DNA of 64,000 nt, taken from Gemmatimonadota bacterium. Its GTDB lineage: Bacteria; Gemmatimonadota; Gemmatimonadetes; Gemmatimonadales; Gemmatimonadaceae. Positions 16,714 to 63,515 of this stretch are shown in pieces (position 1 is the first letter of the stretch; every line of letters begins with the position of its first letter). The stretch covers positions 124,001 through 188,000 of the forward strand of contig JAQBQB010000020.1 in NCBI GenBank assembly GCA_028287235.1. Reading direction: 5' to 3'. The notes below the pieces were generated by a model. The model searched no databases. It saw only the letters and a list, made by a program, of their open reading frames with translations, and had not been told where the DNA came from. The translations under genes and the position numbers were made by a program.

Positions 16714-17795
16714 CGGTCGCCGAGCAGCCCGCGCCGCACCATCAGCTCGGCGTTGAGCACGGATGCGCCGGCGGCGCCGCGAATGACGTTGTGGCCCATC
16801 GCGACCAGCTTCACGGTGAAGATGGGGTCGGCGCGCACCCGGCCGACGACCACCGTCATGCCGTGCCCGGTGTTCACCTGCCGGCGCGGCTGCGGTTGAT
16901 CGGGTTGGTCGCTGAGGAGCAGCGCGCGCTCGGGTGAGCTGGGCAGCCCGCGCGCCTCCTCGGCGCCGCGCCACTCGGCGATCGCCCGCTCCACCTCGGC
17001 TGCCTCTACGCGCGACTCGAGCTCGATCGACATGCACACCGTGTGTCCGTGCTCCACCGGCACCCGGTTGGCGTGCGCGCTGACGAGAAAGCCGGCGTGC
17101 TGAATGGTGCCGCCGCTCACCGAGCCGAGGAACTTCTGCATCTCGACTTCGATCTTCGGCTCCTCGTCCTTGATGTACGGAATCACGTTTCCGAGGATGT
17201 CGAGCGACGGCACGCCGGGATATCCGGCCCCCGACACCGCCTGCATCGTCATCGTTACCACTTTGGTAATACCGAAACGCTCATGGATCGGCGCCAGGGG
17301 CAGCGACGCGACGATCGCCGCGCAGTTGCCGTTGGCGACGATCGCTCCCGACCAGCCGCGCGCTTTCCGCTGCGCGTCGAGAATCGACAGGTGCTGAGGG
17401 TTCACTTCGGCGATCACGAGCGGCACGTCGGGATCCATGCGGTAGTTCTTCGCGTTCGTCAGCACCGTCTTGCCGGCGCGCGCGAACGCCGGCTCGGCGT
17501 CTTCCGCGGCCGACGAGTCGAGCGCCGAGAACACGATGTCGGCCGTGATCGCGCCCGGGTCGCAGGGCAGCACCTGCATGCCGGCGACGCTCGCAGGCAG
17601 CGGATCGCCGCCGATCCACCGCGCGGCTTCGGCGTACGACTTCCCCGCCGACCGCTCCGACGCCGCGAGCTCGGCGAGCTCGAACCACGGATGATTCGCG
17701 AGCAGGCGTACGAACGATTGTCCCACCGCACCGGTCGCGCCGAGGACGGCAACGCGCCGGCGACGCGCGGGAGAGGTGGGGGTATCGGTGGTCAT
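16710..17795 (-). CDS. asd: Aspartate-semialdehyde dehydrogenase
   Basis: A 361-residue NADP-dependent enzyme that reduces aspartyl phosphate to the semialdehyde. The N-terminal Rossmann motif is VAVLGATGAVGQSFV, and the catalytic cysteine lies in VANGNCAAIVASLPLAP. The substrate-binding phrases SGAGYPGVPS and NRVPVEHGHT and the C-terminal GHNVIRGAAGASVLNAEL fit the archaeal/fungal-type Asd group, which is longer than the common bacterial one. The ATG at 17795 overlaps dapE by 4 nt. It bridges LysC and DapA within one operon. Confidence 0.95.
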   Translation of the reverse strand: MTTDTPTSPARRRRVAVLGATGAVGQSFVRLLANHPWFELAELAASERSAGKSYAEAARWIGGDPLPASVAGMQVLPCDPGAITADIVFSALDSSAAEDAEPAFARAGKTVLTNAKNYRMDPDVPLVIAEVNPQHLSILDAQRKARGWSGAIVANGNCAAIVASLPLAPIHERFGITKVVTMTMQAVSGAGYPGVPSLDILGNVIPYIKDEEPKIEVEMQKFLGSVSGGTIQHAGFLVSAHANRVPVEHGHTVCMSIELESRVEAAEVERAIAEWRGAEEARGLPSSPERALLLSDQPDQPQPRRQVNTGHGMTVVVGRVRADPIFTVKLVAMGHNVIRGAAGASVLNAELMVRRGLLGDR

Positions 17796-18787
17796 GAGCT
17801 CAGGAGACTCGTGATGATTCGCTCGTACGCATCCACCGAGCGGCGCAGCTCGCCGACGTCGATGAACTCGTCGGGCGTGTGCGCGACGTGAATGGATCCG
17901 GGGCCGAACATCAGCGGCGTTCCCCACTTGCCGAGCAGCGGAATGTCGGACGTGTAGGCGACCGGCGCGACCTCGAAACCTGGGATCGTGTGGAAGTGCT
18001 GCGCGGGAATGTGCGAGCCGTATTCGAGCTCGGCGCGTCCCTTGGCCCACGCGTCGATCTGTTTGCGCAGCGGCTTCACGTCGCTCACGAGGCGGAACAT
18101 CATCTCCGCTTCGGCGAGCGCCGGGACGATGTTCGCTTCGGTCCCACCGCGAATCGTGCCCACGTTCACCGTGGTGTTGCCGAGGATCTCGTCCGTGGGA
18201 AGATCGAGATCGTCGAGCGTGGGCAGAAGCTCGATGAGCGGACGAATCGCCGACTGTCCGAGATGCGCGTACGCCGAATGCGCGGCGCGTCCGCGCGTTC
18301 GCGCGATGACGCGGAGCGAGCCCTTCGCGCCGCTCGCGAGCTTGCTCTCCGTGGGCTCGCCGTTGACGAGAAAGCGGCTCGTGGCGCGGAGCCGGTTGGC
18401 CGCGCGCGCGCCGTCGGAGCCCTTCTCCTCGCCGACGACGAACAGGAGATCGACGCGCTGCTCGCCCTTCGTCGCGAGGTTGTCGGCGGCGACGAGCATC
18501 GCCGCGGCGATTCCCTTGGCGTCGCACGCACCGCGCCCGTAGAGACGATCGCCCTCGAGGCGCGGTGCGATGTACGGCGGCACGGTGTCGAGGTGCGTCG
18601 ACAGCGTGACGCCGTGTCCCTGGCGCGATGCCCAGATGTTGGCGCGCCCCCGTGTGACCTCTTGCAGCGTCACGTTCCAGCCCCGGGCGACGAGCCATTT
18701 GGAAACGAAGTCCACGGCGCCGCTTTCGGCGCCCGTGGACGAGTCGATGGTCAACAATTCAGCGGCGAGCGCAACGACGTCGGTCAT
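17792..18787 (-). CDS. dapE: M20 metallopeptidase, succinyl-diaminopimelate desuccinylase
   Basis: A 331-residue zinc-dependent amidohydrolase. M20 metal-site motifs are present: LSTHLDTVPP (first His/Asp), YGRGACDAKG (bridging Asp) and VVGEEKGSDGA (Glu pair). The lid-domain signature GRAAHSAYAHLG follows. It is shorter than E. coli DapE (375) and resembles the DapE/LysK/ArgE group, so the name rests partly on the operon, which also encodes the succinyltransferase DapD. It is the first gene of the dapE-to-cmk operon and is divergent from the H1-like gene, whose promoter starts 37 nt away. No gene for the intervening aminotransferase is present here. Confidence 0.88.
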   Translation of the reverse strand: MTDVVALAAELLTIDSSTGAESGAVDFVSKWLVARGWNVTLQEVTRGRANIWASRQGHGVTLSTHLDTVPPYIAPRLEGDRLYGRGACDAKGIAAAMLVAADNLATKGEQRVDLLFVVGEEKGSDGARAANRLRATSRFLVNGEPTESKLASGAKGSLRVIARTRGRAAHSAYAHLGQSAIRPLIELLPTLDDLDLPTDEILGNTTVNVGTIRGGTEANIVPALAEAEMMFRLVSDVKPLRKQIDAWAKGRAELEYGSHIPAQHFHTIPGFEVAPVAYTSDIPLLGKWGTPLMFGPGSIHVAHTPDEFIDVGELRRSVDAYERIITSLLSS

Positions 18788-18823: not shown

Positions 18824-18852
18824 TTGACCGAACTGGCGAAATTCGGTACATT
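18824..18852 (+). promoter_or_regulatory. Promoter for the H1-like/DdrA-like genes
   Basis: A TTGACC box (18824-18829) and a TACATT box (18847-18852) are separated by exactly 17 nt, a sigma-70-like arrangement. Transcription would begin near 18860, giving a leader of about 50 nt before the GTG at 18909. Confidence 0.65.
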
Positions 18853-18864
18853 TGTGATACCGAA
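18842..18864. promoter_or_regulatory. Perfect palindromic operator TTCGGTA-N9-TACCGAA
   Basis: A 7-bp perfect inverted repeat with a 9-nt spacer (arms 18842-18848 and 18858-18864). It overlaps the -10 box and the expected transcription start, the position where a repressor would block initiation. The binding protein is not known. Confidence 0.65.
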
Positions 18865-18908
18865 CAAGCCCCGAAAGCGAGCGATCAGGAACAGCTACCA
18901 GGAGGAGA

Positions 18909-19340
18909 GTGAAGCCGAAGCGGAAGGACGGGGCTGGGCGGAAAACTCGCGGGAAGCACGCCGCCCCCCGCCCCGCGAAGCGGGTCGCAAAGAAAGTCGC
19001 GAAGCACGTCGCAACGAAGGGCGCGACGCGAGCGGCGAAGGCGGCGCGAAAGAAGCCCGTGAAGCGCCCAGCGAAGAAGCTGGTCAAACGAAAGGCGACG
19101 AAGAAAGCCCCGCTACGGCCGCTGCCGTCGGCGCCGGTCTTTCAGATTCGCGAGCTCGATCCCCAGAGGAAATGCGGACCCGGCACGTCGGTCCAGCTGC
19201 TCTTTCGGGTGGACGAGCGGATGAATGGAGTGGTGCGGCCGCATCTGGTCTTCTTCGACCGGCACGGCTGGTACTGCGAGCACGGGCGCGACTGCGTAGC
19301 GGTGGCCCCGGCGCGAAAACTTGGAGTTGGCGCACGATAG
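18909..19340 (+). CDS. Histone H1-like Lys/Ala-rich protein with a small Cys/His-rich C-terminal domain
   Basis: A 143-residue basic protein of unrecognised family. Residues 1-70 are a low-complexity Lys/Ala/Arg tail with AKK/PAK-type repeats (PAKRVAKKVAKHV) like eukaryotic H1 and bacterial Hc1-type DNA-binding tails. Residues 76-135 look like a folded domain (VFQIRELDPQRKCGPGTSV through RHGWYCEHGRDC) with C89, H112, H119, C123, H125 and C129 that might bind a metal. The start is a GTG; a strong GGAGG ends only 3 nt before it, closer than usual. It follows a promoter/operator and lies 39 nt before the Rad52/DdrA-like gene. A role in DNA compaction or repair is inferred from the tail and neighbour only. 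Confidence 0.75.
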   Translation: MKPKRKDGAGRKTRGKHAAPRPAKRVAKKVAKHVATKGATRAAKAARKKPVKRPAKKLVKRKATKKAPLRPLPSAPVFQIRELDPQRKCGPGTSVQLLFRVDERMNGVVRPHLVFFDRHGWYCEHGRDCVAVAPARKLGVGAR

Positions 19341-19379
19341 CTGGATAACTGGATCGACTTACAACGGAAGGATGAGAGC

Positions 19380-20135
19380 ATGATTGCGAGACATGAAGCG
19401 AATTCGCAGCACGTGGATGCCTGGACTCGGTTGGCGGCGCCACTACCCGCCGGTGTGATTTTCTGGCGGCAGGACGGTCGCGCGGTGCAGCGCGACGGCA
19501 AGTACTTCGCGCGCTTCGTTGCGTACATCGAAGCGAACACGGTACGCGAGCGGCTGGACGGCGTGGTCCCCGGCGAGTGGGATCTGACCCTCGAGCTGAT
19601 GCCCACCCTCACGTCGGACGAGCCCGACGAGACGGCCTGCTCCTTCAAGGCGCGGCTGCAAATCCTCGGCGTCATCCGCGAGGACGTCGGCACCGGGCGC
19701 GACTACAAGCAGGCGGCGACCGACGCGTTCAAGCGCGCCGCCGTTCGGTTCGGCATCGCGCACGAGCTGTATTCGTACGAGCAGAACTGGGTGCAAGTCG
19801 ACGGCGAAGGCAGATACGCCAAGCCGATCGAAGATCCGGCGGACGCCTACGCACGGCGTTCGAAGCGCGGACGTCGCGTCGAGCTCGCGGAGCCTGCTCG
19901 CGACCTGGGAACGACTGAGGAAGCGGCGCAGGACGAAGGCGATGCAGAGCCGGCGACCACCGACGCGCTGCCGTCGCACGAGCCGAGCTGCCCGAAGTGC
20001 GGCGGCCGGATGTGGGACAATCGCATCTCCAAGCGAAACCCCAAGGCGCCGGACTTCAAGTGCCGCACGCGCTCCTGCGACGGCGTCGTGTGGCCGGCGT
20101 CGGCGTCCACCGAGTTGAAGGAGCTGCCCTTCTAA
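19380..20135 (+). CDS. Rad52/DdrA-like single-strand DNA annealing protein with C-terminal zinc ribbon
   Basis: A 251-residue protein. Residues about 30-135 match the Rad52/Rad22 and Deinococcus DdrA type of annealing domain. The indicators are an N-terminal beta region (KYFARFVAYIEANTV), CSFKARLQILGVIRED, and the helix GRDYKQAATDAFKRAA followed by VRFGIAHELY. An acidic linker (about 165-200) leads to a zinc ribbon with C204, C207, C228 and C233 (CPKCGG ... CRTRSCDG). Such proteins protect or anneal single-stranded DNA after damage. A good ribosome site (GGAAGG, 8 nt spacing) precedes the ATG. The gene lies downstream of the H1-like gene, probably on the same transcript. Assignment is by motif pattern; the exact subfamily is uncertain. 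Confidence 0.78.
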   Translation: MIARHEANSQHVDAWTRLAAPLPAGVIFWRQDGRAVQRDGKYFARFVAYIEANTVRERLDGVVPGEWDLTLELMPTLTSDEPDETACSFKARLQILGVIREDVGTGRDYKQAATDAFKRAAVRFGIAHELYSYEQNWVQVDGEGRYAKPIEDPADAYARRSKRGRRVELAEPARDLGTTEEAAQDEGDAEPATTDALPSHEPSCPKCGGRMWDNRISKRNPKAPDFKCRTRSCDGVVWPASASTELKELPF

Positions 20136-62465: not shown

Positions 62466-63515
62466 TCAGTCCAGCAGGTCGCTCAAGAGCTGCGATGTGT
62501 GGCCCACGAGCGAGATGACTTTTTCGTACGACATGCGCGTCGGCCCGATGACGCCGATCACGCCCGTCAGCGACCCCACGTGATACTCGGCCGTGACGAC
62601 GGTGAAATCCTCGAGACGGGGATCGTCGTGCTCCGAGCCGATCGTGATCGAGATGCCCGGCGCGTGGATGCGGCGCCGAATCGTCTCACCGAGCGCCTGC
62701 GGTGTTTCCGTGAGCGCCAATAACCGCCTCAATCGATCGGCTCCCGAGAACTCCGGCTGCTCCGCCAACACCGACGCCGCGCCGAGCACCACCTGGCCGT
62801 CCGACATCGGCATCGCCGCGTCGAACAACTGCTCCCCTTCCTGCAGAAAGATATTGAGGAGTCCAGAGGCACTCTGATCGGTGCCCGCGTCGCGCAACCG
62901 CGCGGGAAGCGAGCTGCGGATCTGCGCCAGCGACAGGCCGCCCAGCCGCTCGTTGAGCACGGCGGTGACGCCGGTGATCGCGATGTCGGCGATCTCACCC
63001 GGCATCTCGACGAACACCGTACGCATGACGCCGCCGTCGAGCGTGAGCACCATGAGCAAACGCTCACTGCTCACGCGCACGAGCTCCAAGCGCCGTAGCA
63101 CCGACAGGTCCAGGCGTGGACCAAGCGCGACGCCCAGCTCCTGCGTCAGCACGCCAAGCGTCTGCGCAGCGCGGCGAAGAATGGTCTCAATGGGCGACGA
63201 GCTGCCGTTATTGGTGATCTCCTCCGTGAGGCGATCGGTCTCGACGGCCTTGAGCGGCGGAAGGCTGAGCAGCGAATCGACGTAGGCGCGATAAGCCTTG
63301 TTGGTCGGCACGCGCCCCGCCGACGTGTGCGGATGGAGGAGGAATCCTTTCTCCTCGAGATCGCTCATCGTGTTGCGGATCGTGGCCGGCGACACGCCGA
63401 GCCCGAACCGCCGGGAGAGCGTCCGCGATCCGGCAGGCTCGGCAGTTTCGACGTAGCTGCGAATCACCGCCTCGAGAACGCGGCGTTCGCGACTGCTGAG
63501 CTCTTCAGATGCCAT
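62466..63515 (-). CDS. hrcA: Heat-inducible transcription repressor HrcA
   Basis: A 349-residue repressor of heat-shock genes that binds CIRCE sites. The N-terminal winged helix ([30 protein letters not shown], with [18 protein letters not shown] and [14 protein letters not shown]) is standard. A GAF-like domain with an inserted dimerisation region fills the rest. No CIRCE palindrome is visible in the 10 nt before its start, because hemW abuts it; control of a promoter upstream of hemW cannot be seen in the window. Confidence 0.95.

Follow-up and report, generated by a model that had tools for sequence, protein, structure and literature searches.

In a soil-dwelling member of the Gemmatimonadota, the operon that encodes a Rad52/Erf-family annealing protein is, with a probability we put at about 0.88, a member of the SOS regulon that is inducible by DNA damage through LexA. 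Its promoter carries the direct repeat CCGAA-N6-CCGAA, which is the LexA (SOS) box of Gemmatimonadota. Comparison across genomes delineates this operator and its regulon, from which we infer LexA binding and damage induction. LexA would repress the promoter (18824-18852) via the direct repeat (18860-18875), which lies over the expected transcription start. Following DNA damage, with RecA filaments and self-cleavage of LexA, the operon would be expressed along with lexA, recA and imuA-imuB. The first-pass annotation had suggested a repressible, damage-responsive operon, and the presence of the phylum’s LexA box at the promoter supports this suggestion well. Its case against a LexA box does not hold, since it compared the element with just two types and these boxes vary between phyla. 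The further suggestion of a role in desiccation gains no support from our analysis.

Coordinates (Table 1) refer to the window, the 64,000-nucleotide stretch of DNA that was analysed; the genome searched is 5.73 Mb, and genome-wide counts are from pattern searches. The sigma-70-like promoter, TTGACC-N17-TACATT, is the sole such match in 5 kb. Among 99 genomes of the family Gemmatimonadaceae, 28 have orthologs of the annealing gene (fragments and ribbon-only matches counted; 22 loci are named). When the orthologous promoters are aligned, the conserved segments are TTGAC, the -10 box and TACCGAACAnnCCCCGAA, the extended consensus of the LexA box, which starts at 18858. The first base of the box is 8 nt downstream of the last -10 base. 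CCGAA-N6-CCGAA is found on either strand in 28 of 29 distinct orthologous promoters, compared with a mean of 0.16 and a maximum of 2 in dinucleotide shuffles. Because these promoters come from related species and lack independence, comparison with shuffles excludes an effect of composition and does not provide a probability. Each of the other spacings from 0 to 12 between CCGAA repeats occurs in at most 2 of the 29 promoters.

Table 1. Features of the rad52 operon and its surroundings, in window coordinates
Feature	Position	Strand	Basis or conservation
M20-family peptidase	17792..18787	-	Conserved neighbour; a divergent XRE gene lies between peptidase and promoter in relatives
-35 hexamer TTGACC	18824..18829	+	TTGAC kept at the same place in most orthologous promoters
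Palindrome left arm TTCGGTA	18842..18848	+	Not conserved (promoter alignment)
-10 hexamer TACATT	18847..18852	+	TAnnnT kept in orthologs
LexA (SOS) box, predicted	18860..18875	+	Direct repeat CCGAA-N6-CCGAA; reverse strand TTCGG-N6-TTCGG
Gene 1, Lys/Ala-rich N-terminal tail and conserved domain	18909..19340	+	ORF, ortholog alignment
Gene 1 conserved domain (FQIRELDPxxKCG...HLVFFDRHGWYCEHGxxC)	19131..19313	+	Alignment; AlphaFold pLDDT ~95
Gene 2, Rad52/Erf-family single-strand annealing protein	19380..20135	+	Profile matches
Gene 2 C-terminal zinc ribbon CPKCGGRMWDNR...DFKCRTRSCDGVVWP	19986..20099	+	Alignment; same ribbon in other annealases
Gene 2 SSB-C-terminus-like tip KELPF	20118..20132	+	DEIPF/DDDLPF in orthologs

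Attention was originally drawn to this promoter by an exact palindrome, TTCGGTA-N9-TACCGAA, combined with the 17-nt promoter spacing. Both are indeed present, the palindrome at 18842-18864. This is its only perfect copy in the genome; allowing two mismatches, there are 11 further places, versus 2 for the reversed control. The LexA box consists of the right arm of the palindrome and the adjoining downstream sequence. The palindrome is thus half a conserved element, its right arm, and half coincidence, although the extra TTCGG half-site may have a role specific to this lineage. A search upstream of orthologous operons recovered the perfect form in this genome only, one of the 29 promoters, which counts against the palindrome as a functional operator. 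An operator shared across a regulon was rejected on the same counts. It could instead be a lineage-specific site for a different dimeric repressor, one that replaced a lost XRE regulator (see below) and acts beside or instead of LexA. The perfection and uniqueness of the palindrome would fit such a site, as would the loss of the XRE gene in this genome, with remodelling of the promoter, and additional half-sites around the promoter (CCGAA at 18828-18832 and TTCGG at 18842-18846). However, the LexA box fully accounts for the right arm, none of the 28 other orthologous promoters has the perfect palindrome, and the 5.7 Mb contain no second perfect copy, although a regulon should have yielded some. 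We therefore consider a separate palindrome-binding repressor improbable.

Identification of the direct repeat as the LexA box of Gemmatimonadota derives from its occurrence upstream of lexA, recA and imuA-imuB. All 61 genomes examined, drawn from across the phylum, encode a LexA-type DNA-binding domain. The motif TTCG-N7-TTCG occurs upstream of lexA in all 35 genomes analysed (shuffle mean 0.78, largest 4), and 33 of the 35 have two boxes there. These 35 upstream regions span phylum families f1-f5 and f8 and include genomes with a single LexA match; the box core is TTCGC in family f8 versus TTCGG elsewhere. The product of lexA-A is a canonical LexA (TIGR00498, E 9.3e-61) with the Ala-Gly cleavage site and the Ser/Lys dyad, and the gene has two sites (≤2 mismatches) in each of six genomes of the genus. 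Across these six, ACCGAA-N6-CCGAA matches 5 to 12 times per genome and the reversed control 0 times. Some of these sites precede lexA, imuA-imuB, a radical SAM gene and the rad52 operon; others fall within genes and are probably chance occurrences. The recA gene is preceded by TTCGTATTTTATTCG or a one-base variant in all four genus genomes parsed, a weaker match with TTCGT in the first half. Boxes upstream of imuA-imuB occur in four genus genomes and in the genome studied here.

The genome studied here has 19 exact copies of CCGAA-N6-CCGAA, compared with 3 of the reversed control. Two are at lexA, one is at imuA-imuB and one is at the rad52 operon, and there is one each at Rv2578c/PA0069-like radical SAM, gyrB-like and DinB-family genes. 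The boxed radical SAM gene often adjoins imuA-imuB. The gyrB-like gene, on contig C2, has the LexA-type box TTCGGGATATATTCGG ~ 35 bp upstream. In two genus genomes, a LexA-type box separates a DUF2779 gene from a small gene that matches no family.

Might the direct repeat be bound by something other than LexA that shares SOS targets, such as a response regulator or the second LexA-type protein, LexA-B? Response regulators, too, typically have direct repeats with an 11-bp period as sites, and most family members encode two LexA-type proteins. On the other hand, a box at lexA itself is the classic sign of LexA autoregulation, and here it is directly upstream of the canonical lexA in 35 of 35 genomes, including those with a single LexA match. 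Moreover, the layout equals that of the alphaproteobacterial LexA box, GTTC-N7-GTTC (PMC8565304). On these grounds, we regard a non-LexA regulator as very unlikely and retain LexA as the predicted repressor. The two box types share a direct-repeat layout with an 11-bp period, a TTC core and lexA among the targets. They differ in that the Gemmatimonadota core is TTCGG-N6-TTCGG (TTCGC in family f8), usually with two boxes at lexA. We found no published Gemmatimonadota LexA box in the literature searched, a set that most subscription papers fall outside, and its novelty is provisional. With such a box for the whole phylum, whose members are common in soil, their SOS regulon becomes predictable from sequence.

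LexA-B, whose gene lacks a box upstream, could share sites with LexA-A or compete for them. Within the window, 63339-63506 on the minus strand weakly matches a LexA-type winged helix, in a ~ 360-residue frame that is present in many genomes of the phylum and that, judging from its size, we take to be possibly HrcA.

In relatives, the operon promoter is probably also controlled, beside LexA, by a divergently encoded XRE repressor. An XRE-family gene (HTH_31) lies divergently upstream in 13 of 24 promoters compared. A palindrome with the core ACNNNNGT, placed 25-26 bp after the point where the LexA box starts, is found in 11 of the 13 promoters with the XRE gene and in none of the 11 without it; several of these promoters have another copy at the -35 box. 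The association has a Fisher p of 3e-5, a value that is uncorrected for kinship and is optimistic because the promoters used for counting were also those in which the motif had been recognised. At the operon promoter of the genome studied here there is neither an XRE gene nor a ACNNNNGT-core palindrome. Given that the XRE gene is present in all four genus relatives that have the operon, this suggests that the present lineage lost the gene and its sites.

Gene 2 was initially annotated as an annealing protein with a zinc ribbon, and both elements are borne out. The sequence matches Rad52_Rad22 (PF04098; E 1e-9, 39 bits against a cut-off of 20.3) and the Erf family phrog_1097 (E 3.8e-16), and has a C-terminal ribbon with four cysteines. 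Profile matches thus place the product in the Rad52/Erf superfamily, from which we infer annealing activity. Structure prediction is less informative: the AlphaFold model is poor (pLDDT 59), a fold search returned no significant match (Mgm101, E 0.6-1.2, was the one annealase near the top), and a sequence search of solved structures found no match. In the protein, the Rad52/Erf domain is followed by the zinc ribbon, then by a linker that varies and a C-terminal tip that is conserved. Of 30 full-length orthologs, 27 have a tip with PF at its end, as in SSB, mostly as DEIPF, EELPF or DDDLPF. The version encoded here, KELPF, has one acidic residue and is weaker than DDDLPF, the ending of the SSB of this same genome. 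The likely role of the operon is damage-induced single-strand annealing repair. The gene 2 product would perform the annealing, and its tip would bring proteins that normally bind SSB, such as RecO, RecQ or PriA, to the strands undergoing annealing. A cellular Rad52-type annealase that combines an SOS box with an SSB-like tip of its own makes the access of an annealase to SSB-coated DNA testable, and this architecture is more surprising than a new variant of the LexA box.

The control element of Deinococcus DdrA is the radiation-response motif, versus a LexA box here. With a LexA box found at the promoter, DdrO-type control has no support in our analysis. DdrA is a Rad52 homologue tied to DNA-damage recovery (PMC515370), and in that sense the two proteins are alike by description: each is a Rad52-family protein linked, or here putatively linked, to recovery from damage. 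Also by description, the LexA box, zinc ribbon, SSB-like tip and partner gene set the Gemmatimonadota system apart. With the phage Erf/Sak annealing proteins (phrog_1097), gene 2 shares the N-terminal annealing domain; unlike them, it is chromosomal and syntenic, and has the C-terminal ribbon, the SSB-like tip and the SOS box.

These comparisons lead to the question of origin. The comparative evidence identifies the operon as a resident chromosomal gene pair of the family, with phage-type ancestry. The contrary proposal, that a prophage left the annealing gene behind and that its regulation simply reflects phage logic, draws on the fact that phage Erf/Rad52 proteins are the nearest sequence relatives beyond the family, and on the presence of other Erf-, Bet- and Sak4-type genes within the family. 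However, the best phage matches to gene 2 are only ~ 36% identical and are limited to the N-terminal domain, and no relative of the annealing gene was confirmed among candidate viral contigs from IMG/VR. Synteny with the M20 peptidase is kept in many loci and genomes, and the partner gene is conserved. We consider a prophage remnant improbable and favour a resident gene pair.

The partner, gene 1, had been labelled H1-like, with a Lys/Ala-rich DNA-binding tail, and the operon had been suggested to be a DNA-protection unit. Among orthologs, this basic tail ranges from long to nearly absent, and what is conserved is a C-terminal domain of ~ 55 residues with an invariant Cys, Trp-Tyr-Cys, His and Cys. 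We thus rejected a histone H1-like identity, and DNA protection by such a protein is unsupported. The gene 1 product would instead be a small, conserved partner protein in which the basic tail is optional. The domain has no Pfam family match, and a structure search with its small, confident AlphaFold model gave no significant match.

Wherever a locus offers enough sequence, gene 1 directly precedes rad52, with invariant gene order, and it is present in all 13 genomes of a 200-genome sample that have a full-length rad52. The gap between the genes is 39 nt here, and several orthologs have an ATGA overlap; together with the invariant order, these features indirectly support co-transcription. Two genomes have a second LexA-boxed locus, in which the order is reversed and a gene-1 relative comes after a distant Erf-like gene. 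Because this locus again pairs a gene-1 relative with an Erf-like gene, it supports a working partnership between gene 1 and the annealase. Relatives of gene 1 also stand alone, mostly without a LexA-type box. Five such solo genes adjoin an acyl-CoA-synthetase-like gene and have no LexA box.

Experimental precedent for a link between annealases and SSB tails comes from Sak4, a phage annealase stimulated by the tail of the phage SSB (PMC5928155). As in that system, the gene 2 product would be functionally linked to an SSB C-terminal tip; unlike Sak4, for which the tip is on a separate SSB, it carries the tip itself. The tip may belong to a portable module. We give even odds to the idea that Gemmatimonadaceae attach a ribbon and tip to unrelated annealases (Rad52/Erf, RecT/Bet and Sak4-type) and also make the module alone as double ribbons. 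With it, an annealase would mimic SSB and attract the repair proteins that bind SSB, with the Rad52 and some double-ribbon versions under the phylum’s LexA box and many relatives also under XRE control. Elsewhere in the family, this combination of ribbon and tip is found fused to a RecT/Bet protein (PF03837, TIGR01913) and to an AAA_24 ATPase of Sak4-like appearance. There are also stand-alone double-ribbon proteins, in which the ribbon is accompanied by an acidic LPF or IPF ending of the same kind, and three of their genes have a LexA-type box nearby.
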